Shown: piece after piece, positions 902 to 22,119 of the stretch
Layout of the letters: each line of letters opens with the position of its first letter
How positions within the stretch are numbered: position 1 is the stretch's first letter
Virus record (IMG/VR): IMGVR_UViG_3300008263_000056
Location: 1-22,119 of that record
Length of the DNA: 22,119 nucleotides
Reading direction: 5' to 3' (one strand)
From: a virus
The notes under the pieces: generated by a model
What the model saw: the letters and a program-made list of their open reading frames with translations, nothing else
The model's database searches: none
What the model was told of the DNA's origin: nothing
Position numbers and translations under genes: made by a program

Positions 902-1321
902 ATGACTGATTACCACAATGGCGAAGAAGCCTACCGTTTGGCCGCATGGCTACAAGAAGGCGCATTTCACAAGATGACGCTTGGTGACGTTGAAAAAGCA
1001 GGCCGATTGCTTATCAAACTACAAGAGCGACTTGTAGAGATGGAGAAAGAATACGACGCAAGCATGGTTCACCAAAACAACCAATACAACCGGCGTGTTT
1101 CTGAGCGTGATGCACTTGAATTGCGCTGTCATCAATTGGTTTGTGAGACCGCCAGATATGCAGCGGAAATATCACTTGGCAAGTCGGCAACCATCAAGCT
1201 GTCCATGGCTCTTGATGAGGCGCAGTCTCAAAGCGATAGACGCGCCGCCTTGTTGAGGCAATATCATTTGGGACATAAAACACCGGCCTTGTTTGAGGCG
1301 GTAGAAAAGGAGATTAGATGA
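902..1321 (+). CDS. Hypothetical coiled-coil phage protein
   Basis: The start is set by AGGAG about six bases upstream of the ATG. The 139-residue product is mostly helical and charged. Residues about 25-75 (LLIKLQERLVEMEKEYD and on) and 85-139 show heptad-like spacing of leucine, methionine and alanine, suggesting a coiled coil. No catalytic motif is visible and I do not recognise the family. It is the first gene after box copy 1, and its TGA overlaps the ATG of the next gene, so the two are probably translationally coupled. Confidence 0.75.
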   Translation: MTDYHNGEEAYRLAAWLQEGAFHKMTLGDVEKAGRLLIKLQERLVEMEKEYDASMVHQNNQYNRRVSERDALELRCHQLVCETARYAAEISLGKSATIKLSMALDEAQSQSDRRAALLRQYHLGHKTPALFEAVEKEIR

Positions 1322-1653
1322 CAACAAGAGGCGCTGAAATGATGAAGGAAATTCATCAAGATGTTTTGGACATTGGCAAACAAGCATTGGATTTGAAGGC
1401 GCGTTGCGAAGCATTGGAGCTTGCATTGCGAGTTGAGCGTGGCGCAGCAAATTCTTATGCCAGACAAGTAGCCCACTGGATTGGCAAGCACGATGCGCTT
1501 TTGGAGCAACAGCTAGATGCAAACAAGACTGTTAAGCAATGTATGGATTGTTTGCACTACAACGAGCCATTAGCCAGTCAAAATTGTGCATCGTGCATTC
1601 ATGGTGGAAACGTAGAAGATAACTTCGTTTCACTCGGAAAGGAATACGAATGA
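1318..1653 (+). CDS. Small protein with a helical N-terminus and a C-terminal four-cysteine zinc knuckle
   Basis: This 111-residue protein begins in an ATGA overlap with the previous gene and has AAGGAG nine bases upstream. Residues about 10-70 are helical with coiled-coil character. The C-terminus has two CxxC pairs, C75/C78 and C90/C93, spaced as in a small zinc ribbon (CMDC and CASC). A zinc-binding, nucleic-acid or protein-contact role is plausible but not shown. Similar short accessory genes with Cys pairs are common in phage early regions. Function is unknown. Confidence 0.7.
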   Translation: MTTRGAEMMKEIHQDVLDIGKQALDLKARCEALELALRVERGAANSYARQVAHWIGKHDALLEQQLDANKTVKQCMDCLHYNEPLASQNCASCIHGGNVEDNFVSLGKEYE

Positions 1654-1838
1654 CAACCTATTTTGTGAACCGTGAACTTAGTGCGCGAGCTGATATGAAT
1701 TTTACGATTGATATACCGCCTGAAATTGAAAAATTAGGTAATCAATCAATAAAGTCTTACATAAAGGCCAATAGCGAATGGCGTGATTATGTGGAAATTG
1801 ATGTTGATTGCATAATTTTTGAAAAGGATTCGGAATGA
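1650..1838 (+). CDS. Hypothetical small AT-rich gene
   Basis: This 62-residue protein starts in an ATGA overlap, with AAGGAA upstream as ribosome binding site. The sequence is acidic toward the end and contains FTIDIPPEIEKLGNQSIKSYI, with no motif I recognise. Codon use is more AT-rich than in the genes on either side, which may mean a separate origin. It ends in an ATGA overlap with the next short gene, so it belongs to the same coupled series. Function unknown. Confidence 0.6.
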   Translation: MTTYFVNRELSARADMNFTIDIPPEIEKLGNQSIKSYIKANSEWRDYVEIDVDCIIFEKDSE

Positions 1839-2005
1839 ATGAAGAACTTTTAACAGCCATTCGTGATCTGGCTATGCGTTCACTTAGAGGCGAATGGTGG
1901 CAGCCGTATGAACTTCATAGAACAACTGGGAACAGTGATGCTGAATTTATTGCAGCTATGTCGCCAGAGTTGGTGCTTGACCTTGTGTATGAAATTGAGC
2001 CATGA
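1835..2005 (+). CDS. Hypothetical 56-residue phage protein
   Basis: ATG at 1835 overlaps the preceding TGA; AAGGA lies about 8 bases upstream. The protein ends with AAMSPELVLDLVYEIEP. A run of the form SPEVVxxLI is typical of the start of Ea22/ead-like phage proteins, so this may be a short relative or a fragment of that modular group. No enzymatic motif is seen. Its TGA overlaps the ATG of the next gene. Frame continuity and tight junctions on both sides support it as real. Confidence 0.6.
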   Translation: MNEELLTAIRDLAMRSLRGEWWQPYELHRTTGNSDAEFIAAMSPELVLDLVYEIEP

Positions 2006-2196
2006 ACCACCCCGAAGCCCATAACCTACTAGACCAACGCAAAGCAGGCGCAGACCTACCCGCGCATGTGGTCAATCAAGCGCTATTCCTGACCGGCGAC
2101 CTGAGCGAAAACGAGTTACTAAGGGTTTCCCCTAATACCCAACATAACAAAACTAACAATAATCGGAATCTTCCTAACGGTAATTGGACTGTCTAG
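2002..2196 (+). CDS. Hypothetical 64-residue phage protein with a box-encoded tail
   Basis: The N-terminal 40 residues (AHNLLDQRKAGADLPAHVVNQALFLTGDL) form a compact helical unit of a type I recall in short proteins of betaproteobacterial phages. The last 24 residues begin RVSPNTQ, encoded by box copy 2, and then turn Asn-rich and low in complexity. The tail therefore probably reads through regulatory DNA and is not part of the functional fold. The start overlaps the previous stop (ATGA). No ribosome binding site is obvious, so translation is likely coupled. Confidence 0.6.
   Translation: MNHPEAHNLLDQRKAGADLPAHVVNQALFLTGDLSENELLRVSPNTQHNKTNNNRNLPNGNWTV
2123..2164 (+). promoter_or_regulatory. 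Repeated box plus -10 (copy 2 of 4), candidate phage promoter
   Basis: GGGTTTCCCCTAATACCCA at 2123-2141 is followed by 17 bases and then ATAATC at 2159; AATAAT one base earlier is an equally good -10. It differs from copy 1 only in the box centre and adjoining positions. The next gene, with a strong AGGAGG, starts 103 bases after the start of the box, the longest distance of the four. The box lies within the C-terminal codons of the upstream gene. Confidence 0.55.
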
Positions 2197-2225
2197 GCTA
2201 ATCGGAAAAATCTTAGGAGGAATAA

Positions 2226-2480
2226 ATGCAAGTAACCATTAAGCAGCAAGCCGCAGAGATTGAGCGCAAAGGCATCGAAGTGATGATGGCGCTTTCAAAG
2301 CAGCAAGACCTTGCCATTGCGTGTGAGCAGCTACGGGCCGAGCGTGACGCAGCCTTAGCAGAGATTGAGCGGTTGAAGGCTGACATTCAGACGCACCAGC
2401 GTTCATTCGCTGCGCTCAAGTCTGACACTGACGCCCTTCAAGCCAAGCTCGCCGCGATGGAAGCGGTGGATCAGCCATGA
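2226..2480 (+). CDS. Coiled-coil protein, Ea22-like module
   Basis: This 84-residue protein is preceded by a strong AGGAGG and is the first gene after box copy 2. It is almost entirely a predicted coiled coil: residues about 5-80 alternate charged and Leu/Ala positions (QLRAERDAALAEIERLKADI). It ends with DALQAKLAAMEAV, a segment repeated nearly identically, in DNA as well as protein, in the gene at 2897. Such tails are common in modular Ea22/ead-like phage proteins. It may be a truncated member of that group. Function unknown; structural or scaffolding-type helices are all that can be seen. Confidence 0.7.
   Translation: MQVTIKQQAAEIERKGIEVMMALSKQQDLAIACEQLRAERDAALAEIERLKADIQTHQRSFAALKSDTDALQAKLAAMEAVDQP
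2429..2469 (+). repeat. 41-base direct repeat, copy A
   Basis: This segment, inside the 3' end of the coiled-coil gene at 2226, matches 3082-3122 at 38 of 41 positions. It encodes DALQAKLAAMEAV in the same reading frame as the other copy. The match at DNA level suggests recombination or duplication between modular early genes. Confidence 0.85.
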
Positions 2481-2656
2481 AAATCCAAGACCTATTGCGC
2501 CAGTGCGCTGCCAATCAAGCAAGCACAGACGGAAAGACGTACCACCCGTGCCGCGCAAAATCAGCAGAAAACACCTTTCTGACTGAGCGCATTAAAGCAG
2601 CTTGGAAGGTTTTAACAGGCAAGGCTGATGCCGTTGAATGGGGATATTGGGAATGA
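2477..2656 (+). CDS. Hypothetical 59-residue phage protein
   Basis: ATG at 2477 overlaps the TGA of the previous gene. The 59-residue product begins MKIQDLLRQCAANQASTDGK and ends in VEWGYWE. It has two cysteines (C10 and C25) too far apart for a simple knuckle. I do not recognise the family. ATGA junctions at both ends and a clean frame support expression. It lies in a run of very small coupled genes. Confidence 0.6.
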   Translation: MKIQDLLRQCAANQASTDGKTYHPCRAKSAENTFLTERIKAAWKVLTGKADAVEWGYWE

Positions 2657-2745
2657 AAGATATTTTTATTTTTATTGGGTGCATTGCTGCGGCTATTTTT
2701 ATTTTTGTGGTGTCTTTTGTTTGGAGCTTTTGGGACCTTATATGA
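2653..2745 (+). CDS. 30-residue single-pass membrane peptide
   Basis: ATG at 2653 and the TGA ending at 2745 both sit in ATGA overlaps with neighbours. The product, MKDIFIFIGCIAAAIFIFVV then a Trp-rich end, is almost wholly hydrophobic and would span the inner membrane once. Small membrane peptides are frequent in phage early regions, where known ones alter host envelope or superinfection behaviour; nothing here assigns such a role. The coding evidence is the two-sided overlap and hydrophobic composition, so expression is probable but unproven. Confidence 0.55.
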   Translation: MKDIFIFIGCIAAAIFIFVVSFVWSFWDLI

Positions 2746-2900
2746 AACAACTGATTCTGAAAATAACCCACCGCATGTGGAACCGCGAAATCTCTCGAAT
2801 CCTATGCCGAGCCTACGAAAAGCAAATCATCAACAGCTATCAGCTCCATGAGCTTCTTGCAAAGTTTGACCCAACGCAGAAGCACGAGGTTTACAAATGA
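2742..2900 (+). CDS. Conserved small basic phage protein
   Basis: The start at 2742 is chosen because it overlaps the preceding TGA; upstream in-frame residues read through the membrane peptide in another frame and are not protein-like. The 52-residue product (ILKITHRMWNREISRILCRA, then INSYQLHELLAKFDPTQKH) is helical and basic. I recall closely similar short proteins in betaproteobacterial phage early regions, all of unknown function. It ends in an ATGA overlap with the next gene. Confidence 0.75.
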   Translation: MKQLILKITHRMWNREISRILCRAYEKQIINSYQLHELLAKFDPTQKHEVYK

Positions 2901-3466
2901 CCACCGAGAACATTGAAAACCACATGGCTTACACATGCAAATGCGGTGGCGTGAACTTTGCCTTGCTCAAATCTGGCGGCATTGAATGCAACAAATGCAG
3001 CAGCCAGCTTGATGGCGTTAAGTGGTGGGCAGGCGGCATGGGCGCGCAACTCGCCAGAGCTATCAAAGCAGAAGACCAGCGTGACGCCCTGCAAGCCAAG
3101 CTCGCCGCGATGGAGCCGGTGGCGTATTTTGGGTCGGCTTACGTCAATGAGAACGGCGTACACGTCACAACAGTGCTTGGCCCTGTCGCAATTCCGCAGG
3201 ACGCAAAGCTCTACACAGCACCCAAGGCGCAACCAGATGACTCGGACATAAACCAAGTTCACGAGGCCAATGCGCAGGTTACTTACGCCCCGATTGTTTA
3301 CAACGCAGCACCCAAGGTGGCACAACCGCTGACGGATGAGCAAGTGCGCAAATGGTGGGCAAGTGAGAACGGCCTAGAAGATTGCTGCATGTGCAAGCTG
3401 GATGACTTCAGTCAGGTGGTTCGTGCAGTTGAAAGCAAGCACGGCATAGGAGGCCAGCAGCCATGA
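2897..3466 (+). CDS. Ea22-like modular protein with N-terminal zinc ribbon
   Basis: This 189-residue protein has an N-terminal Cys cluster (CKC, then CNKC about 17 residues later) resembling a zinc ribbon. A short coiled coil follows, ending in DALQAKLAAMEPVAYFG. Next comes a segment with VTTVLGPVAIPQDAKLYTAP, and a C-terminal part with LTDEQVRKWWASENGLEDCC. The middle (AKLAAMEPVAYF and LYTAP) is typical of Ea22/ead-type phage proteins, which are mosaics of interchangeable parts. GAGG lies just before the ATG, which overlaps the previous stop. Function is unknown. Confidence 0.75.
   Translation: MTTENIENHMAYTCKCGGVNFALLKSGGIECNKCSSQLDGVKWWAGGMGAQLARAIKAEDQRDALQAKLAAMEPVAYFGSAYVNENGVHVTTVLGPVAIPQDAKLYTAPKAQPDDSDINQVHEANAQVTYAPIVYNAAPKVAQPLTDEQVRKWWASENGLEDCCMCKLDDFSQVVRAVESKHGIGGQQP
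3082..3122 (+). repeat. 41-base direct repeat, copy B
   Basis: This is the second copy of the segment at 2429-2469, with three mismatches. It encodes DALQAKLAAMEPV within the gene at 2897. Both copies are in the same frame and orientation, 653 bases apart. Confidence 0.85.
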
Positions 3467-4454: not shown

Positions 4455-4566
4455 CGAGGACTACGCACGATGGGCACTCAAGAATTACGAAACGATGTTT
4501 CCAGAGCTAGAGCTAATCAAGGGAGTGACGGAAGCATTACGCTCCCTTGGCCCCCCAAAGAACTAA
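4390..4566 (+). CDS. Small conserved phage protein overlapping rusA
   Basis: The 58-residue product (or 48 from the ATG at 4420) reads MIDHILYLKKIDEDYARWAL, then LIKGVTEALRSLG. It resembles small helical proteins near resolvase genes in betaproteobacterial phages. It overlaps the upstream gene by 65 bases and the RusA frame by 97 bases. No clear ribosome binding site distinguishes the two starts. The protein-like composition and family resemblance argue that this frame, not only the flanking ones, is expressed. Confidence 0.65.
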   Translation: MHPLATLRSRMIDHILYLKKIDEDYARWALKNYETMFPELELIKGVTEALRSLGPPKN

Positions 4567-4895
4567 GCCCGAACGCTCGATTGCACTGGAGCAAGAAAAG
4601 CAAAGCCGCAGCAACTTACCGACAAGCCTGTTACATGCTGGCAATACAGGCCGGTGCGAAGGCTGGGATACCGTGGGAGGGGGATATACACCTATGGATT
4701 GATTTCTACCCGCCAGACCGCCGACAGAGAGACGATGACAACATGATTGCAGCCTTCAAGAGTGGGCGCGATGGGCTGGCGCAGGCATTTGGAGTGAATG
4801 ACAAGCGGTTTAGGACACACCCATACGTCAAAGACCAGATTGGCGGGATGGTGAAGGTGCGATTTACAAAAGGGCCAGAAATATCTAAAACCTAG
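4470..4895 (+). CDS. rusA: RusA-family Holliday junction resolvase
   Basis: RusA enzymes are small dimeric nucleases that cut four-way DNA junctions, usually in phage recombination or replication. The 141-residue product contains ITLPWPPKELSPNARLHW, the usual front of the family, then RRQRDDDNMIAAFKSGRDGL and GVNDKRF. D88 and D90 with D111 match the family's metal-binding acidic residues, and K97 is near the expected catalytic lysine. Family similarity begins only at about residue 23. The first 22 residues lie inside the overlapping gene at 4390, so the ATG at 4470 may not be the true start; no other ATG or GTG is available in frame. It belongs with ninB downstream. Confidence 0.9.
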   Translation: MGTQELRNDVSRARANQGSDGSITLPWPPKELSPNARLHWSKKSKAAATYRQACYMLAIQAGAKAGIPWEGDIHLWIDFYPPDRRQRDDDNMIAAFKSGRDGLAQAFGVNDKRFRTHPYVKDQIGGMVKVRFTKGPEISKT

Positions 4896-5154: not shown

Positions 5155-5246
5155 TATAATATGAGTATGGCTACCTTTAGCGGGGGAAAAGCGTCTCATC
5201 AACGCCTGCCATATTTTTCACGATGACTATCCACTCTGATGAGGTG
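5155..5246 (+). promoter_or_regulatory. Promoter-like -10 and possible RBS-masking leader before the endonuclease
   Basis: A perfect TATAAT lies at 5155-5160, without a good -35 at the usual spacing. Downstream, GCGT (5191-5194) and ACGC (5202-5205) can form a hairpin whose seven-base loop, CTCATCA (5195-5201), is perfectly complementary to TGATGAG at 5237-5243. That second segment overlaps the GAGGTG ribosome binding site (5241-5246) of the endonuclease gene. The pairing could hide the site. Pairing is read from sequence only; regulation is inferred. Confidence 0.4.
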
Positions 5247-5250
5247 CGAC

Positions 5251-5871
5251 ATGCCAAAAAAGCAATCTGACATAACTGGTCAAAAATTTAACATGCTTAC
5301 CGCTGTTGAATTTGTTGATAGGGGTTCAAGTGATCAATACTTTTGGAAATTTGTATGTGATTGCGGAAATTTTGTTACTGTTAAAAAATCAGTTGTTTTT
5401 CGTGGTGTAACAAAATCATGTGGTTGTATAAGAAAAATTAAAGCCTTGGAGTCAATCAAAAAGCATGGGATGACAAATGCCAAAATATATAAAACATGGT
5501 CATCAATGATTCAGCGGTGTAAAAATGAAAAAAATCCTTTTTATCATAGGTACGGAGGAAGAGGAATTACCGTTTGCGAAAGCTGGCTTAAATTTGAAAA
5601 TTTTTATAAAGACATGGGTGATAGGCCATTTGGTTTTACGCTTGATCGAATTGACAACAATGGAAACTATGAACCTACAAATTGCAGGTGGGCTACAGGC
5701 ACAGAGCAGGGGTTAAACAAAGAAAAAACGGTAAAAGTTTTGTTTAATGGCGAACTCTTGCCACTAATGTTAGTTGCTGAAATTCATGGAAAAAAATATG
5801 CGCCTGTGAAAAAGAGAATTGACAGGGGGTGGTCTTTAGAAAAAGCCCTAAATGAGCCAATGAAGAAATGA
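5251..5871 (+). CDS. HNH homing-type endonuclease with zinc ribbon and C-terminal DNA-binding module
   Basis: Start 5251 is chosen over 5239 because GAGGTG stands directly upstream. The 206-residue protein has an N-terminal Cys pattern CDC (36-38) and CGC (57-59), suggesting a zinc ribbon. The central nuclease part follows the phage HNH style: YHRYGGRGITVCESW (98-112) and LDRIDNNGNYEPTNCRWAT (131-149). The C-terminal module has the form VKKRIDRGWSLEKAL, common after these nucleases as a helix-turn-helix. Such enzymes cut DNA and spread their own gene. The gene is clearly more AT-rich than its neighbours, pointing to recent arrival. Its TGA overlaps the ATG of ninB, so insertion kept downstream translation intact. 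Confidence 0.85.
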   Translation: MPKKQSDITGQKFNMLTAVEFVDRGSSDQYFWKFVCDCGNFVTVKKSVVFRGVTKSCGCIRKIKALESIKKHGMTNAKIYKTWSSMIQRCKNEKNPFYHRYGGRGITVCESWLKFENFYKDMGDRPFGFTLDRIDNNGNYEPTNCRWATGTEQGLNKEKTVKVLFNGELLPLMLVAEIHGKKYAPVKKRIDRGWSLEKALNEPMKK

Positions 5872-6254
5872 GAGTTTTATTAACAAACAGACAGCAAGCT
5901 CACGCGGTTGTTAATGAGGCTTATGTAAAAATTAAAGAGCAGCTACAGGCAGGTAAGCGGCTAGTCCTAACGCTGACAGAGGAAACCCGCAGCACGGAGC
6001 AAAACGCGAAGATGTGGGTCACTCTGGGCGAGATAGCCAATCAGGTGGACTGGTACGGCCAGAAGCTCACGGCAGAGGAATGGAAGTGGGTTCTATCCGC
6101 AAGCCTGAAAAAGCAGAGAGCAGTTCAAGGGATAGATGGTGGATTTGTGGTGCTAGGGCAGTCAACATCAAAGATGACCATTGCGGAAATGTCGGAAATG
6201 ATTGAACTAGCGATAGCGTTTGGAGCGCAACAAGGTGTAATTTTTAAGGAGTGA
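5868..6254 (+). CDS. ninB: NinB-family recombination protein
   Basis: NinB (lambda Orf) is a phage recombination mediator that binds single-stranded DNA and SSB, able to replace RecFOR. The 128-residue product carries the typical middle and end of the family: TRSTEQNAKMWVTLGEIANQ, VDWYGQKLTAEEWKWV, and GIDGGFVVLGQSTSKMT followed by EMSEMIELAIAFG. Length fits a complete protein. It starts in an ATGA overlap with the endonuclease and shares the block with rusA, so this part of the phage probably handles recombination during replication. Confidence 0.95.
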   Translation: MRVLLTNRQQAHAVVNEAYVKIKEQLQAGKRLVLTLTEETRSTEQNAKMWVTLGEIANQVDWYGQKLTAEEWKWVLSASLKKQRAVQGIDGGFVVLGQSTSKMTIAEMSEMIELAIAFGAQQGVIFKE

Positions 6255-6257
6255 ATC

Positions 6258-6440
6258 ATGTTTGGATTTATTGAATCTTTGGCTAAGGCCGCAACCGTAG
6301 TTGTTACAGCTCCCGTTGCTGTCGTGGCTGATGTGGTGACATTGGGAGGTGCATTGACCGACAAGGACAAGCCCTACACCGCAGAAGCATTGGGCGACTT
6401 TGTGGACAACCTGAAAAACGCTACAAATCCAGATAAATGA
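6258..6440 (+). CDS. Small conserved phage protein with hydrophobic N-terminus
   Basis: This 60-residue protein follows AAGGAG. Residues about 8-30 (LAKAATVVVTAPVAVVADVV) are hydrophobic, then TLGGALTDKDKPYTAEAL follows. Short proteins with the sequence VADVVTLGGALTD are common in phages and prophages, function unknown. The hydrophobic stretch may be a membrane helix. The stop overlaps the start of the next gene (ATGA). Confidence 0.8.
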   Translation: MFGFIESLAKAATVVVTAPVAVVADVVTLGGALTDKDKPYTAEALGDFVDNLKNATNPDK

Positions 6441-6745
6441 CAGCCCGACCTAAATTCCAATACGTGCGCAGCAAAAAGCTAATGGAGGCATACCGCACAA
6501 TTCCATGCCAGCATTGCGGACGCGATGACGGTACGGTGTGCGGGGCGCATTCAAATTGGTCAAGTGATGGAAAGGGCAAGGCTATCAAGGCAAGTGATGA
6601 CAAATGCGCCAGTCTTTGCAGCCGATGCCATGCCGCACTTGATCAAGGCTACACACTAAGCGCACAGGAAAAGCGCGTGCTCTGGACAGCAGCACACCAG
6701 AAAACAGTAGATGAACTGACTAAACGAGGGCTATACACATGTTAG
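6437..6745 (+). CDS. YbcO/DUF1364-like Cys/His protein, probable HNH-type nuclease
   Basis: The 102-residue protein contains YRTIPCQHCGRDDGTVCGAH, then HSNWSSDGKGKAIKASD and LCSRCHAALDQG. Cys/His groups C24, C27, C35, H38 and C61, C64, H65 could bind zinc and form an HNH-like fold. This layout matches YbcO-type proteins of lambdoid phages, one of which was reported as a nuclease and which sit in the nin region. The neighbouring ninB and rusA support a recombination role. The start overlaps the previous stop. Family placement is by eye; nuclease activity is inferred. Confidence 0.75.
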   Translation: MTARPKFQYVRSKKLMEAYRTIPCQHCGRDDGTVCGAHSNWSSDGKGKAIKASDDKCASLCSRCHAALDQGYTLSAQEKRVLWTAAHQKTVDELTKRGLYTC

Positions 6746-8184: not shown

Positions 8185-8436
8185 ATGAGCAAGCAACAAG
8201 TCTATGAACTCATGGAGCAGGGCATAACCTGCCGCAAAGAGATATCACAGCGCACGGGACTGACCCGAAAGCAGGTAAACGGCGCACTCGCGCAGCTATA
8301 CCGCAACAAGCGAATCAAGCCTAAGGAGACGCTAACCATACGTGGTAACCCGTATCACGTTTTTGAGGTGAATAGCGGATTTAAAAAGCACATTTTTGAC
8401 GGGGTGAACTCAATTTTTAACGTGGGGGCTGTATGA
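8185..8436 (+). CDS. Small helix-turn-helix DNA-binding protein
   Basis: Residues about 1-60 read QVYELMEQGITCRKEISQRT then GLTRKQVNGALAQLYRNKRI, the layout of a winged helix-turn-helix with an ISxRTGLTRKQV recognition helix. The following IRGNPYHVFEVN could form the wing. The 83-residue size fits a single-domain regulator. It lies near the end of the early block, just before box copy 4, and is a candidate binder of the repeated boxes; that link is inference from position alone. GGGAAAA is the likely ribosome binding site. Confidence 0.75.
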   Translation: MSKQQVYELMEQGITCRKEISQRTGLTRKQVNGALAQLYRNKRIKPKETLTIRGNPYHVFEVNSGFKKHIFDGVNSIFNVGAV

Positions 8437-8616: not shown

Positions 8617-8820
8617 ATGGCAATCACAATCAACAACGCAGCGACCCTCATTGCAGATATTGACCCATCACTGTCTGTAATATGGCTAAACAATCCATTC
8701 CAGCGCCATAACATCGTTACGGCTTTCCATGCTTCGCTGAGCAAAAGCAAGTATGCAGCAATGGCCGACCGCATTGCCGTAATGCTGCGATCTGCTATTG
8801 ATGCAGATACTGCAAAATAA
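8617..8820 (+). CDS. Hypothetical 67-residue protein in its own transcription unit
   Basis: The gene has CGGAGAG before its ATG, a promoter-like box and -10 upstream, and a UUCG terminator four bases after its stop. The product, MAITINNAATLIADIDPSLS then LNNPFQRHNIVTAFHASLSK and MADRIAVMLRSAIDA, looks like a small globular helical protein. I do not recognise it. Isolation between its own signals implies high or separately timed expression, unlike the coupled genes before it. Confidence 0.7.
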   Translation: MAITINNAATLIADIDPSLSVIWLNNPFQRHNIVTAFHASLSKSKYAAMADRIAVMLRSAIDADTAK

Positions 8821-8823
8821 TCC

Positions 8824-8843
8824 AAGGGCTTCGGCCCTTCTGT
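8824..8843 (+). terminator. UUCG-loop intrinsic terminator
   Basis: AAGGGC and GCCCTT (8824-8829, 8834-8839) form a six-base-pair stem around a TTCG loop, followed by CTGT. The T-tract is short, so efficiency may be moderate. It ends the early block after the 67-residue gene. Confidence 0.75.
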
Positions 8844-9262
8844 TAAAATAGAACAAACTAGGCGGCTCATTCTCTCCCTCCGGTAGTCTCAATCCTAGAC
8901 TAGACAATTTTCACAAGTGCAATCGCTCCGAGCCTGTGTTTTGAGACGAGCGAAAGCATTAAAAGCGGTGAGCCTTAATACATAACCGCAATTGTGAGAA
9001 TGGATACATCAAGCAAGCTAACGCATTTAGGCCGGTAACTAGAAATCAAGTCCGGGTTAAAGAAAGCAAGGCTACCTCATTGCGGGGCTTACTTGATGAA
9101 CTATGAACCAAGCCCCTTGGCATCAATTCAGATGCAGCTAAAGTAACAGGGGGTTTGATTGATGGTTAAGCGCAACGGCGGGCGGTATTAAACCACTGCC
9201 TTCTAAGCGTAGGGTAGGGGAGTCTCTGCCGCCATCACACAAAAGCACAATCCGGAGAAAGC
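8844..9262. other. About 420-base gene-free region with several complementary segments
   Basis: No ORF here has plausible composition or signals; the small reverse-strand ORFs look accidental. Pairings that can be read include GTCTCAA with TTGAGAC near 8886 and 8941, and CATCAAGCAAGC (9007-9018) with GCTTACTTGATG (9087-9098), 11 of 12 pairs around 68 bases. Another nested structure pairs AAGCCCC (9110-9116) with GGGGTTT (9150-9156) around the hairpin GCATC/GATGC (9120-9124, 9131-9135). No tRNA T-loop or recognised riboswitch is visible. Lying just before the terminase genes, it may hold a packaging site, the late leader or a structured RNA. Confidence 0.5.
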
Positions 9263-9406
9263 ATGAAAGTTCCGCCTCAATACATGCTGGTAAGCGATGC
9301 ATTCTATAAAGCAATGCAGAACGCCATAAAAGAGCAAACAGCGCGGGAGCAAGTATGCACTCCGTTTGGGCTATGGACGCTTTTCCCGTCATTGTGTAAG
9401 CGTTAG
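9263..9406 (+). CDS. Hypothetical 47-residue protein before the terminase genes
   Basis: ATG at 9263 follows CGGAGAAAGC, a good ribosome binding site in a leader similar to those of the genes at 4960 and 8617. The product reads VPPQYMLVSDAFYKAMQNAI then KEQTAREQVCTPFGLWTLFP. I do not recognise it. It is the first gene after the gene-free region. Its reality rests on the strong initiation signal and sensible composition. Confidence 0.55.
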   Translation: MKVPPQYMLVSDAFYKAMQNAIKEQTAREQVCTPFGLWTLFPSLCKR

Positions 9407-9460
9407 CACAAAGCACAACCCATGCCTATAATTGGCTATCACGGAAAACCCGAGGTAAGC

Positions 9461-9889
9461 ATGGCATTCAATCAAGACAAAGCAGACGAGGTATGTATCC
9501 TCCTAGAGGATGGCCTAAGCCTCCGCAAAGCAGCGGAAAAGGTGGGTGAATCAGCTAGGACTATCCTTAATTGGACGAAAGCTAATCCCGCATTCCTTAC
9601 ACAATACACGCGAGCAAGGGAAATCGGCTATCTGCAATTGGCAGACGAAATCCTAAACATCTCCGATGAGTACCAAGTAGAGGTAAAGCACAACGGGGAA
9701 GATAAGACTATCGACCTGAGTGCAACGGCTGTAGCCCGTAACCGCCTGAGAGTGGATACACGCAAATGGATGCTCTCTAAGATGCTGCCAAAGGTCTACG
9801 GCGATAAACTGGAATTGACCGGCGACGATACGAACCCGCTCCAAGTCGTAACTAAGGTGCAGTTCGAAGTTGTCCACCCTAAAACTTAA
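9461..9889 (+). CDS. terS: Terminase small subunit
   Basis: The small terminase subunit recognises phage DNA for packaging and regulates the large subunit. Start 9461 is preferred over 9422 because GAGGTAAGC stands directly before it while 9422 has no ribosome binding site. The 142-residue product has an N-terminal helix-turn-helix (ADEVCILLEDGLSLRKAAEK, then VGESARTILNWTKANPAFL), a helical middle (RAREIGYLQLADEILNISDE) and a typical small-terminase end (RLRVDTRKWMLSKMLPKVYG, then DKLEL). It overlaps the large-subunit gene by 20 bases, the normal order for terminase pairs. Confidence 0.9.
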   Translation: MAFNQDKADEVCILLEDGLSLRKAAEKVGESARTILNWTKANPAFLTQYTRAREIGYLQLADEILNISDEYQVEVKHNGEDKTIDLSATAVARNRLRVDTRKWMLSKMLPKVYGDKLELTGDDTNPLQVVTKVQFEVVHPKT

Positions 9890-11222
9890 AGTACCGGCAA
9901 AGCTAGCCCCATTACTCCAGCCAAAACGCTACAAAGGCGCATACGGTGGGCGAGGTGGGGCTAAGTCGCATTTCTTCGCTGAACAGATCGTATGCCAAGC
10001 CCTGACAGGTAAGCGCATCGTTTGTCTGCGTGAGGTGCAAATCTCCATTAAGGAATCCGTCAAGCAGTTGATTGTGGACAAAATCATAGGCATGGGCCTA
10101 GATTCACAGTTCGAGATTCTTGAATCAGAGATACGAGGGCCGCACGGTAGCCTAATCATCTTCAAGGGCTTGCAGTCATTCAACGCTGCGAACATCAAAT
10201 CGCTGGAAGGTTTTGATATTGCATGGGTAGAGGAAGCACAGACCCTCAGCCAGCACTCGCTAGACCTGTTACGCCCGACAATCCGCAAACCCGGCTCTGA
10301 GTTGTGGTTTAGCTGGAATCCCCGTTACAAGACTGACGCAGTAGATAAGTTTTTCCGCAAAGACAAGCGAGACGATGCTATCTGCATCATGATTAACTGG
10401 TACGACAATCCGTGGTTCAAAGATACGCCACTCTATGCGGATATGCTGGCAGACTTTGAAGCAGACGAGGATAAAGCCGAGCATGTGTGGAATGGCGCGT
10501 ATGGTTCAAGCCAAGGCGCTATCCTTGCGAAGTGGGTAGGACAGGCAGAGCGAGAGGGGCGAATCCATGATGGCGTGGAGTACGACCCAGAAGGGCCAAA
10601 AATCGTCATATCGTCTGACCTTGGTTTCAGGGATACAACGGCGTGGTGGTTCTGGCAAGCAGCTCCGGGCGGGTTTAACCTTGTGGACTACACGCAGGGT
10701 AACGGCATGGACGCCGATGATTGGATACCCGAGCTTAGAGATAAGCTGGCCGATATTGGTGGGCGCAACTGCTTAGGCAAGATATGGCTACCATCAGACG
10801 CACGGGCTAAGACGTTTCAGAGCAAGCATACGGCGGTAGAACGATTCATTGCGGCATTCGGGCATGACAAACTAGCCATAGTCCCACAATCGCGCAAGTC
10901 TGACCAGATCGAGGCCGCACGGACAACAATCAAGAAGTGCGCTTTTCATAAGACCAAGTGCGAGGAAGGGATAGACGGGCTATTAGCGTGGGAGTTTGTC
11001 TACAACGAGGAATCGGGAGTATTTAGCCGTGAGCCTAACCACAATTGGGCGTCTCACCCCTCCGATGGCTTCGCTTACGGGTGCCAAGTAATGTCGCAAG
11101 TTCAGCCAAAAGAACCCGAAAAACCCGCAGAATTTGCCATAAAAGGGCAGAATGGGCGCATAATCACGCAATCCCTAGACAAACTCTGGGCAGAAACCAC
11201 TACAAAGCGCGAGAGGTTCTAA
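9870..11222 (+). CDS. terL: Terminase large subunit (packaging ATPase and nuclease)
   Basis: The large terminase subunit drives DNA into the prohead and cuts it. No ATG fits; the TTG at 9870, about ten bases after AAGGTG, gives the expected N-terminus (STLKLKVPAKLAPLLQPKRY). The Walker A region is GGRGGAKS at residues 26-33, an accepted variant in terminases. Walker B is FDIAWVEEAQ at about 115-124, with the coupling motif SWNP at 148-151. The nuclease part has D250 in SSDLGFRDTTAW, D310 in LPSDARAK and a C-terminal SHPSDGFAYG. At 450 residues it is full length. It overlaps the small subunit upstream, and its stop overlaps the next ATG. Confidence 0.95.
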   Translation: MSTLKLKVPAKLAPLLQPKRYKGAYGGRGGAKSHFFAEQIVCQALTGKRIVCLREVQISIKESVKQLIVDKIIGMGLDSQFEILESEIRGPHGSLIIFKGLQSFNAANIKSLEGFDIAWVEEAQTLSQHSLDLLRPTIRKPGSELWFSWNPRYKTDAVDKFFRKDKRDDAICIMINWYDNPWFKDTPLYADMLADFEADEDKAEHVWNGAYGSSQGAILAKWVGQAEREGRIHDGVEYDPEGPKIVISSDLGFRDTTAWWFWQAAPGGFNLVDYTQGNGMDADDWIPELRDKLADIGGRNCLGKIWLPSDARAKTFQSKHTAVERFIAAFGHDKLAIVPQSRKSDQIEAARTTIKKCAFHKTKCEEGIDGLLAWEFVYNEESGVFSREPNHNWASHPSDGFAYGCQVMSQVQPKEPEKPAEFAIKGQNGRIITQSLDKLWAETTTKRERF

Positions 11223-20391: not shown

Positions 20392-20591
20392 CACTAATCC
20401 AGCTTATCCAACAAGTATGCGATGAACTCGCAATCAATCGACCCACTGTTATCGTGGACACGACTGACCCGCAGACACGTCAAATGTCTGCATTGTTGTA
20501 TCGGCTGGGTAACGACCTTGTAAAGCAGTTTGAGTGGCAGCGGCTGAATAAGGAGTACATCCTTCAGACCGTGACAACGCCACGCAAGTAA
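20388..20591 (+). CDS. Head-tail adaptor (gp4-like), N-terminal part of split gene
   Basis: The 67-residue product (LIQLIQQVCDELAINRPTVI, then LLYRLGNDLVKQFEWQRLNK, EYILQTVTT) matches the front of phage gp4-like adaptor proteins, which normally run about 200-260 residues and bridge portal and tail. It stops at a TAA at 20589-20591. The rest of the family continues in the next ORF in the -1 frame. It starts in an ATGA overlap. Whether this is a broken gene, two working peptides or a frameshift site is open. Confidence 0.7.
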   Translation: MTLIQLIQQVCDELAINRPTVIVDTTDPQTRQMSALLYRLGNDLVKQFEWQRLNKEYILQTVTTPRK

Positions 20592-20593
20592 CA

Positions 20594-21157
20594 ATGAACA
20601 TGCCATCCACGGCTTCAGGCACTGTGACGCTGCAATTCTCTCAGGTGCAATACAACCTGCCCTCAGATTGGGATAGGGAGATTCCGCAGACTGAGTGGGA
20701 CAGAACAAACCGCTGGCCTTTGATGGGGCCACAGTCCGCGCAGGATTGGCAGTCGTTCAAGTCCGGTATTGTGTACGCTGGCCCCCGTGAGCGATTCCGT
20801 ATTCTTGGCAACACCTATGCAATCAATCCTCCACCGCCTAACGGACTGGTTTTTGGTTTTGAGTATATTTCTAAGGCATGGATTTACTCTGCTGGCGGCG
20901 TGGCTCAGACAGCATTCGCTTCTGACAGTGATACCTTTATCTTCACTGACAGCCTTCTTATTACTGGCCTCAAAACACAATGGAAAATGGCTAAGGGATT
21001 GGATGCCAGTTTTGACCTAGCAGAATTCCGCAGTCTTTTGGAAAGCAACAAAGCGCAGGATAAGAGCTATCCTAAATTGTCACTTTCCCCTGTTGGAAGT
21101 ACCGTATTGATGACCACAATGAACCTACCCGATGGCGGGTTCGGAGGAATCGTCTAA
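20594..21157 (+). CDS. Head-tail adaptor (gp4-like), C-terminal part of split gene
   Basis: The 187-residue product contains SQVQYNLPSDWDREIPQTEW and RWPLMGPQSAQDWQSFKSGI, then GPRERFRILGNTYAINPPPP and VFGFEYISKAWIYSAGG. These are the middle and end of gp4-like adaptor proteins. The ATG at 20594 comes three bases after the first base of the run beyond the TAA of the N-terminal part, with only two bases between the ORFs. In-frame codons upstream of this ATG (from 20552) still look family-like just before it (ATQVTMNMP), so the break is recent or bridged. The stop overlaps the next ATG (TAATG). Confidence 0.75.
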   Translation: MNMPSTASGTVTLQFSQVQYNLPSDWDREIPQTEWDRTNRWPLMGPQSAQDWQSFKSGIVYAGPRERFRILGNTYAINPPPPNGLVFGFEYISKAWIYSAGGVAQTAFASDSDTFIFTDSLLITGLKTQWKMAKGLDASFDLAEFRSLLESNKAQDKSYPKLSLSPVGSTVLMTTMNLPDGGFGGIV

Positions 21158-21423
21158 TGGACAAACAAGCCATCATCAAAGCACTGCGAGACACAACACA
21201 AAGCGCGTCTAACTCAGTCGCTGAGACTGCATCGCTTCCTATTGACGCCATAACATGGGCACTTCGTAAAGCTGGCCTAGACATTAAAAACCCTGTTGGC
21301 GGCTCTGATTGGATGGCCCAAAATGGACTAACCACTCCAGTGCAGGAAGGCGTGCCAAAGATGGCGGGTGAAGTTATCGGCAACCTACTGCCCACAATGG
21401 CGCTCACCAAGGTTATGAAATGA
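21157..21423 (+). CDS. Small conserved late phage protein
   Basis: The 88-residue product reads QAIIKALRDTTQSASNSVAE, SLPIDAITWALRKAGLDI, NPVGGSDWMAQNGLTTPVQE and ends AGEVIGNLLPTMAL. I recall the DAIxWxLRKAG and PVGGSDWM pattern in proteins encoded near adaptor and neck genes of betaproteobacterial phages, with unknown role. It joins both neighbours by overlapping stop and start codons, so it is translated with them. Confidence 0.8.
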   Translation: MDKQAIIKALRDTTQSASNSVAETASLPIDAITWALRKAGLDIKNPVGGSDWMAQNGLTTPVQEGVPKMAGEVIGNLLPTMALTKVMK

Positions 21424-22119
21424 AAGCCACAGCAACATCCATACCCGCATGCGTTGGAGGATTGAACGATAGAGACGGTATCGCAGAGATGCCGCCTAGT
21501 GATGCTGTCATTCTCGAAAACTGGTGGCCGTATCCCTCTTACCTTGGAATCCGCAAAGGCAGTAGCTCACACGTTACCGGACTGCCTTCTACCGTCGAAA
21601 CGCTTGTAGAGTATCTGCCCACTACGGGCGGCTCCACCCTTTTCGCAGCGGCTGGCACTTCGTTCTACAACGTCACCACGGCAGGCGCGGTGGGCGCAGC
21701 GGTACAGACTGGCCTAGCCAATGCAAGGTGGGAACATGCCCAGATCACGACACCGGGCGGTTCTTTCCTATATCTTGTTAACGGAGTTGATAAGCCTCGT
21801 TTGTGGAATGGCACAGCATGGACTTCGATTGACGGGGTTTCTACTCCGGCGATCACGGGTGTAACCACAACCCTCCTAGCCCATGCGCAGCTATTCAAAA
21901 ACCGGCTTTTCTTCGTGGAGAAAAACTCCATGCGGGCTTGGTATCTGCCGGTTAACTCCGTGGGCGGCGCGGCTTCGCAACTTGACCTTGGTTCGGTTTT
22001 CCGTCTGGGTGGCTTTATCCAAGCCTGCTACACATGGACAATTGACGCCGGTTCGGGTTCGGATGATCATTTTGTGGTGCTGTCTAGTAACGGGGAAGTG
22101 GCTGTCTACTCAGGGGCAG
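21420..22119 (+). CDS. Neck/tail structural protein, N-terminal part (cut by window edge)
   Basis: The frame opens at an ATG overlapping the previous TGA and runs off the right edge; 233 residues are visible. It contains VGGLNDRDGIAEMPPSDAVI, LENWWPYPSYLGIRKGSSSH, TLFAAAGTSFYNVTTAGAVG and later AQLFKNRLFFVEKNSMRAWY, then FVVLSSNGEVAVYSG. I recognise this as a common phage virion protein built of short beta blades, located after gp4-like adaptors. By position it resembles P22 gp10-type stabilisation or stopper proteins; that role is inferred. Confidence 0.85.
   Translation, partial: MKATATSIPACVGGLNDRDGIAEMPPSDAVILENWWPYPSYLGIRKGSSSHVTGLPSTVETLVEYLPTTGGSTLFAAAGTSFYNVTTAGAVGAAVQTGLANARWEHAQITTPGGSFLYLVNGVDKPRLWNGTAWTSIDGVSTPAITGVTTTLLAHAQLFKNRLFFVEKNSMRAWYLPVNSVGGAASQLDLGSVFRLGGFIQACYTWTIDAGSGSDDHFVVLSSNGEVAVYSGA

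Follow-up and report, generated by a model that had tools for sequence, protein, structure and literature searches.

The window, a 22,119-nucleotide stretch of virus DNA (IMG/VR record IMGVR_UViG_3300008263_000056), raises the question of what is encoded by about 420 bases in front of its terminase genes. The initial annotation had seen no credible gene there and a density of inverted repeats beyond chance, and it offered a packaging (pac or cos) site, a late leader acted on by an antiterminator, or an undescribed phage RNA as explanations. The stretch from 8821 to 9262 indeed holds no conserved open reading frame (ORF), and the first gene downstream is an ORF of 47 amino acids (Table 1). Comparison with homologous loci leads us to read positions 8842 to 9237 as very probably a plus-strand structured RNA locus, composed of a promoter-like block, a core and an array of swappable modules. 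That a structured plus-strand RNA lies where the packaging operon begins is, in our judgment, highly likely.

Genomic setting of the region

Upstream of the region lie genes for RusA (4470-4895), two HNH proteins (5239-5871 and 6437-6745), NinB (5868-6254), and a small winged-helix protein (8185-8436), and downstream of it lie the genes for an Sf6-type terminase small subunit (TerS), the terminase large subunit (TerL), the portal, and the major head protein. The locus is the junction of a lambda-like nin region with the late genes. No Q-like antiterminator gene was recognised with Pfam and PHROGs among the ORFs scanned. The free-standing HNH endonuclease at 5239-5871 within the nin-like region belongs to phrog_374 (E 1.8e-69). 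Among cultured phages, the nearest portal proteins are less than 40% identical to that of the window. One contig, L160, is practically the same phage (99.98% identity across 11,971 bases); in the comparison of the window’s end (20568-22119) with L160, the two diverge at about 20572, where L160 carries extra sequence before similarity resumes.

The 47-amino-acid ORF is flanked by AAAGCACAATCC at 9242-9253 and AAAGCACAACCC at 9410-9421; these two near-copies of one sequence bracket the cassette (9242-9421) as if its insertion had duplicated that sequence. A close homologue of the ORF occupies the same place in L120, and L002 and others do not have the ORF. The second conserved leader precedes differing first genes in many homologues (L006, L009, L013, L113, L120 and L124), and for this reason TerS probably starts at 9462 (MAFNQDK) rather than at 9422, the ATG of the ORF that was used in the TerS profile searches (PF20901 and phrog_1482). 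Forty bases of the conserved TATAAT leader (9422-9461) lie ahead of this likely start. A promoter-like match of the sigma-70 scan (9403-9432) covers the TATAAT of the second leader; the promoter-like block at 8842-8857 was not listed by this simple scan.

Table 1. Positions of the features discussed, numbered along the window; helices, modules and promoter-like elements are predicted
Feature	Position	Strand	Description or basis
Promoter-like block GTTAAAATAGAACAAA	8842-8857	+	TGn and TAAAAT, in the style of an extended −10; without a good −35
Conserved core RNA	8856-9005	+	Alignment A1, RNAalifold, covariance model R1
Core pseudoknot	8864-8868/8970-8974	+	5′-end GGCTC with GAGCC of the P5 loop
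Core P2	8884-8889/8897-8902	+	Local hairpin, RNAalifold
Core P3	8907-8912/8996-9001	+	RNAalifold
Core P4a	8917-8920/8956-8959	+	RNAalifold
Core P4b	8924-8928/8948-8952	+	RNAalifold
Core P5	8965-8968/8986-8989	+	RNAalifold
Module 1	9007-9098	+	Long hairpin CATCAAGCAAGC...GCTTACTTGATG with its own insert; fold z = −3.15
Module B	9105-9163	+	Hairpin CAAGCCCCTTG/CAGGGGGTTTG around GCATC/GATGC, and near-invariant AGCTAAAG strand
Module E	9160-9237	+	Three-way junction: acceptor-like stem TGATGGT/GCCATCA, hypervariable arm, T-arm-like stem GGGTAGG..TCTCTGCC
47-amino-acid ORF (MKVPPQYMLVSDAFY...)	9263-9406	+	Small gene cassette separating the array from the terminase leader
Second conserved leader AAAGCACAACCCATGCCTATAATTGGCTATCACGGAAAACCCGAGGTAAGC	9410-9461	+	TATAAT at 9427-9432
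Terminase small subunit, Sf6 type	9462-9889	+	PF20901, E 8e-29; phrog_1482, E 1.4e-32
Terminase large subunit	9870-11222	+	PF04466, E 4.9e-32; phrog_3717, E 3.4e-53

The core ahead of differing terminase genes

Relatives of the TerL, two DNA patterns and BLAST together led to homologues of the 5′ part of the region on about 20 distinct IMG/VR contigs; the known copies of the core are confined to one phage group, on about 20 contigs. In their alignment, a core of about 150 nt comes after the promoter-like block GNTAAAATARAACAAA; beyond the core, similarity stops and gives way to a variable array. The block is conserved immediately 5′ of the core in most homologues (L197 does not have it), and the sequence farther upstream is not conserved.

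From the 17 distinct copies in alignment A1, RNAalifold yields the helices P2, P3, P4a, P4b and P5, to which the pseudoknot was added. With the pseudoknot included, 98.0% of the 510 core pair cells are standard, versus 24 to 42% when the partners are slid by 1 to 3 columns. Doubly changed pairs number 8 (3.0 in shuffles) and doubly changed cells 23 (5.6 in shuffles), with the clearest cases in P4b (four pairs) and P5 (two pairs). The covariation score of the core is 0.166 (0.079 in shuffles), a value that none of 500 shuffles reaches. Fourteen of the 30 core pairs are invariant across the copies, and the pseudoknot has one double change, from GGCUC:GAGCC to GGCCC:GGGCC, in L197. Because G-U cells outnumber A-C cells 82 to 9 in the alignments of the core, module B and module D combined (modules are described below), we take the plus strand to be the functional RNA. 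Judged by these comparisons, the core is shown to be a pseudoknotted plus-strand RNA of about 150 nt that has been retained across phages with different terminase families.

The core precedes terminase genes in all copies with sufficient downstream sequence. The TerL behind it is of the PF04466 type in the window, L104 and L197, of the PF03237/Terminase_6 type in L113 and L134, and of the phrog_38 type in L135, and the TerS belongs to PF20901 in the window and L197, to phrog_309 in L135, and to phrog_15261 in L006 and L104, with one unclassified TerS in L092. The same core therefore stands before at least three TerL and at least three TerS families. Between the TerL proteins of the window and L135 there is no significant BLASTP similarity, and between those of the window and L113 similarity is restricted to the C-terminal half. 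L197 lacks an array, and an intrinsic terminator, CCCACTAAGGTGGGCTTTTTC, stands between its core and TerS, so that the core can occur independently of the array and may face a terminator. A downstream terminator was seen in L197 only.

Covariance model R1 recovers the core members at E values of 1e-33 or better, down to 1e-44, and finds nothing significant among about 240 other loci. It has no match among 80 relatives of the L197 TerL, and 80 relatives of the L113 TerL yield no members beyond the known ones. Two matches to Bacteroidota metagenome-assembled genomes, from a genome scan with the core pattern, were judged to be chance (model E 0.51 for L466, and no model match for L467). A blastn search with the region as query gave no match in 50,697 phage records. 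The Rfam check suggested by the initial annotation gave no gathering-level match in the window, including none to GOLLD, ROOL, introns or Y RNA; on 8780-9480, with E values up to 10, the sole match was a chance-level one to a miRNA model (E 2.7). Our literature searches found no published description of the array or the core.

Fold z-scores against shuffles agree with the earlier impression that structure is denser here than expected by chance. The region 8821-9262 has z = −4.1 on the plus strand (none of 100 shuffles is as good) and −2.7 on the minus strand, and 8856-9238 has −5.5 and −2.1, respectively; the median across 383-nt windows scanned along the contig is about −0.4. This excess stability derives from the modules in the second half of the region, and the core alone has a z near 0; the core RNA is supported by covariation instead. 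All four pairings that the initial annotation had listed are present in the sequence, and homologues back three of them. The pairing of CAATTTTCACAAGTGC (8905-8920) with GCAATTGTGAGAATG (8988-9002) corresponds to core helix P3, and GCATC/GATGC nested in AAGCCCC/GGGGTTT (9110-9156) corresponds to module B. The helix 9007-9018/9087-9098, with 11 of 12 pairs, is backed only through a sister module with similar end stems. The fourth, GTCTCAA/TTGAGAC near 8886 and 8941, has no such backing and was rejected: its GTCT is part of the local hairpin P2, and the arm at 8941 is not conserved. Also rejected was a closing helix from the single-sequence fold (8861-8866/9228-9233), which is lost in L164 and L134 and clashes with the supported pseudoknot.

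Modules of the array and their relatives in other phages

The array of the window has three modules (1, B and E). Module 1 is missing from L002, a phage otherwise about 95% identical, and a module of L135 resembles it in the end stems (AAGTAAGCGC..GCGCTTACTT) and differs in the interior. Module B, known in 14 distinct copies, has three doubly changed pairs (for example, G-C to C-G at columns 11/51) and a fold z of about −2.9. The seven copies of module E are nearly identical at both ends, while their interiors share almost nothing; in the copies from the window, L002 and L124, the variable slot still folds into an arm, and the sequences of these arms are unrelated. The window and L002 have TerL proteins that are 99% identical and flanking DNA that is about 95% identical on both sides, and yet the L002 array has no module 1, has two other modules added, and has the interior of module E replaced. 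Comparison of such arrays shows modules with predicted constant end stems and hypervariable interiors, which are gained, lost and refilled between near-identical phages.

ARAGORN found no tRNA genes when run on the window and on 20 sister loci, and Rfam found none in the window. The window array also has no module D, no canonical T-arm and no match to the small RNA family STnc100 (RF02076). The sister arrays additionally hold module A, module C (CATCACGCATGCGG...CCGCAGCCGTGATGG, with unrelated interiors) and tRNA-like modules, and canonical T-arms occur in five of them (0.09 expected from shuffles). Between the modules of the arrays of L009, L008, L108, L270 and L570, a small hairpin recurs whose loop is nearly constant and whose stem changes (CCTCGGAAAGACGAGG, CCCCGGAAAGACGGGG).

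Module D, found in sister arrays, is composed of a 9-bp acceptor-like stem, AAT, a D-like arm with the loop GGCTGA, a variable middle of 19 to 162 nt and a T-like arm with the loop ..ATCAGCA. The two loops can pair over 5 bp (GCTGA with TCAGC; in L013, GATGA with TCATC). In 28 copies, 17 of the 24 pairs are doubly changed, versus 7.4 in shuffles, a contrast that is inflated because the collection of copies partly required pairing. At most locations, a single strand serves both as the 3′ strand of the hairpin preceding module D and as the module’s 5′ acceptor strand, so that the two pairings would compete; the 5′ strand of module E likewise overlaps the base of module B in the window (9160-9163).

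Copies of module D are present in P1 (two), IME207, ZC03, CASP1, CUS-3, HK633, mEp460, ep3 and IME11. The module lies within a tRNA cluster in ZC03, adjoins tRNAs in P1 and CASP1, and, in CUS-3 and HK633, has Q (and PR′) on one side and the holin gene on the other. Some module interiors are identical in unrelated phages, such as P1 and IME207. These comparisons show module D to be a tRNA-elbow-like scaffold, as predicted from its pairing, that is found again in other phages, frequently within tRNA clusters or late leaders. Sequence related to a 243-base P1 query is present in 125 phage records and in 1147 of 5426 E. coli genomes; part of the matches are P1-like plasmids, some cover only the hairpin before module D, and a few comprise no more than a segment that may coincide in part with a tRNA annotation. 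In IME11 (L474, Schitoviridae), about 2 kb without annotated genes (about 983-3067) surround the module D copy, and the genome has sub-threshold STnc100 matches.

Module D resembles STnc100 and PasD in having a terminal stem, a D-like arm by the 5′ strand, a variable middle and a T-like arm by the 3′ strand, and both kinds of RNA are prophage-borne and located near Q and lysis genes. The RF02076 model scores one P1 copy (L463:2092-2212) at 33.9 bits (E 4.7e-6; the gathering score is 47), and the alignment has the same topology. STnc100 and PasD are prophage small RNAs (sRNAs) of enterobacteria that probably share an ancestor and differ in seeds and targets; PasD is located close to the antiterminator gene Q and lysis genes, and both are described as base-pairing sRNAs (PMC13192938). 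STnc100_4 was detected by Northern blot in EHEC (PMC5331693). STnc100 differs in being described as a single sRNA rather than a cassette behind a pseudoknotted core. RF02076 has no match in the window or in the records of L006, L008, L124 and L135, and because the window modules do not match it, we do not claim STnc100 membership for them. Module E has a terminal stem, a variable arm and a T-like arm, but no D-like arm with loop-loop pairing. The link of the window array to an STnc100-like class runs through the sister arrays. This link, the pseudoknot and the modular array go beyond what the initial annotation had seen.

Possible roles of the core and the array

We propose that the region is probably transcribed as the 5′ leader of the late operon, which holds the packaging genes, and that it specifies a structured RNA of several parts, a reading that joins the comparatively supported parts to transcription as a leader. 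An antiterminated late leader comes into consideration because a promoter-like block precedes the core and packaging genes follow it; in lambdoid phages, related modules lie between PR′/Q and the lysis genes. Transcription would start at the extended −10 block, and the core would act in cis, most likely on the passage of RNA polymerase through the hairpin-rich leader into the late genes, in the manner of put/EAR antitermination; alternatively, it may protect the 5′ end. The terminator of L197, the position of the core and its pseudoknot are what suggest antitermination. We hold such a cis-acting core, by either mechanism, tentatively and at somewhat less than even weight, and put it forward as a candidate antitermination element and new pseudoknotted RNA. 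Both put (HK022) and EAR (Bacillus eps operons) act in cis as structured leaders close to where an operon starts, and EAR is similar to the core in size and contains a pseudoknot. However, their fold details are unlike those of the core, which matches no Rfam family.

For the array, we conjecture that tRNA-type processing cuts it into small stable RNAs. Each would display, on a constant scaffold, a variable portion able to pair with an RNA of the host or of a rival, or to mimic such an RNA. Base pairing would parallel the STnc100/PasD prophage sRNAs, which are thought to pair with targets. We consider the chances evenly balanced that the array is a precursor of small stable RNAs whose variable parts act by base pairing or as decoys. 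More speculatively, and rather doubtfully as a whole, the locus may be a two-part system in which the pseudoknotted leader controls late transcription and an exchangeable cassette array supplies tRNA-shaped or hairpin RNAs whose hypervariable interiors act on RNAs of the host or of rivals; its scaffold class would also exist, so far unnoticed, in P1, lambdoid phages, Schitoviridae and many prophages, and STnc100 would be the one named member found here.

The best-surviving alternative, although we think it unlikely, is that the core is a free regulatory small RNA with its own promoter rather than a cis-acting element, and that the array is unrelated cargo at a recombination hot spot. The core does have its own promoter-like block, the content of the array is independent of it, and in L197 the core and its intrinsic terminator would yield an RNA of about 200 nt. 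In the window, however, no terminator is seen behind the core, so that transcripts should run on, and a constant position directly ahead of packaging genes is unexpected for a purely trans-acting RNA.

Less probable still is that the modules are decoys, tRNA-like or, in two other phages, sarcin-ricin-loop-like, that soak up RNA-cutting defence enzymes or toxins of the host, with an arms race varying the interiors. The elbow geometry of module D with its loop-loop pairing, the excess of canonical T-arms in sister arrays and the hypervariable interiors would fit, as would AGTACGAGAG in a module interior of L561, which presumably recalls the 23S sarcin-ricin loop. Most interiors, however, have no recognisable mimicry, and base pairing is the described mode of action of the related STnc100/PasD sRNAs (PMC13192938). 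The module D interiors of L561 (about 1614-1720) and L462 (6002-6110) are related to each other, and the counterpart of AGTACGAGAG in L462 is AGAACGAGAG.

We find it improbable that the modules are mobile DNA elements (palindromic repeats) without RNA function, whose folding is a by-product of the palindromes. Their palindromic ends, their shuffling among phages and the identical interiors in P1 and IME207 could be so explained, but the arms of module D co-vary and its loop-loop pairing is kept, which is unexpected for a simple palindrome, and the G-U bias and the better folding of the plus strand also speak against it. A pac or cos DNA site read by the adjoining terminase is the least credible reading, notwithstanding the inverted repeats and the position immediately upstream of TerS and TerL: such a site would hardly survive exchanges of terminase family, and one core stands before differing TerS and TerL families without co-varying with them; its compensatory changes allow G-U pairs, whose excess over A-C (82 to 9) is explained by an RNA but not by a DNA site; the L197 terminator separates core from TerS; and related modules, including module D, sit far from terminases. 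In Sf6/P22-type phages, pac is located inside the TerS gene. Of the explanations first offered, the packaging site is thus disfavoured, and the undescribed phage RNA is borne out by covariation, by the G-U asymmetry and by the absence of Rfam matches in the window.

Other RNAs of phages and bacteria are similar in part to this locus. YrlA bacterial Y RNAs have a tRNA-like module with features of D- and T-arms; for YrlA, the only matches were weak and below threshold, located on tRNA genes in P1 and ZC03, and there were none in the window. Species 1 and 2 RNAs of T4 are likewise stable RNAs among phage tRNAs, and species 1 has a T-arm (CCGGGTTCGAATCCCGG), but kinship of the arrays to them was set aside, as no clear match was seen by eye. 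Phage tRNA clusters also differ from the window, which holds no tRNA gene, and we know of no array in such clusters (of the T4 species 1/2 type) with a constant scaffold and variable interiors. GOLLD and ROOL, often found near tRNAs, are also large structured phage RNAs. They differ in that neither has an Rfam match here, where the core is about 150 nt and the remainder is modular and variable; an ornate class of phage RNAs that includes both has been described (PMC12286853).

Phage tRNA clusters and late leaders have contained stable RNAs of unexplained function since T4 species 1 and 2, and this locus indicates that stable phage RNAs can be interchangeable scaffolds with hypervariable interiors. 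One scaffold, of which STnc100 is a named relative, spans an uncultured phage group, P1, lambdoid phages, and prophages or P1-like plasmids in about one-fifth of E. coli genomes, and P1 in E. coli K-12 permits a direct test of module function. In P1, an unannotated array of hairpins and tRNA-like modules lies between dmt and tciA (L463:600-2212; about 64834-66446 of OP279344.1) and surrounds the tRNA-Asn and tRNA-Thr genes. The annotated “plp” gene of AF234172 covers one of the P1 modules and may be spurious.
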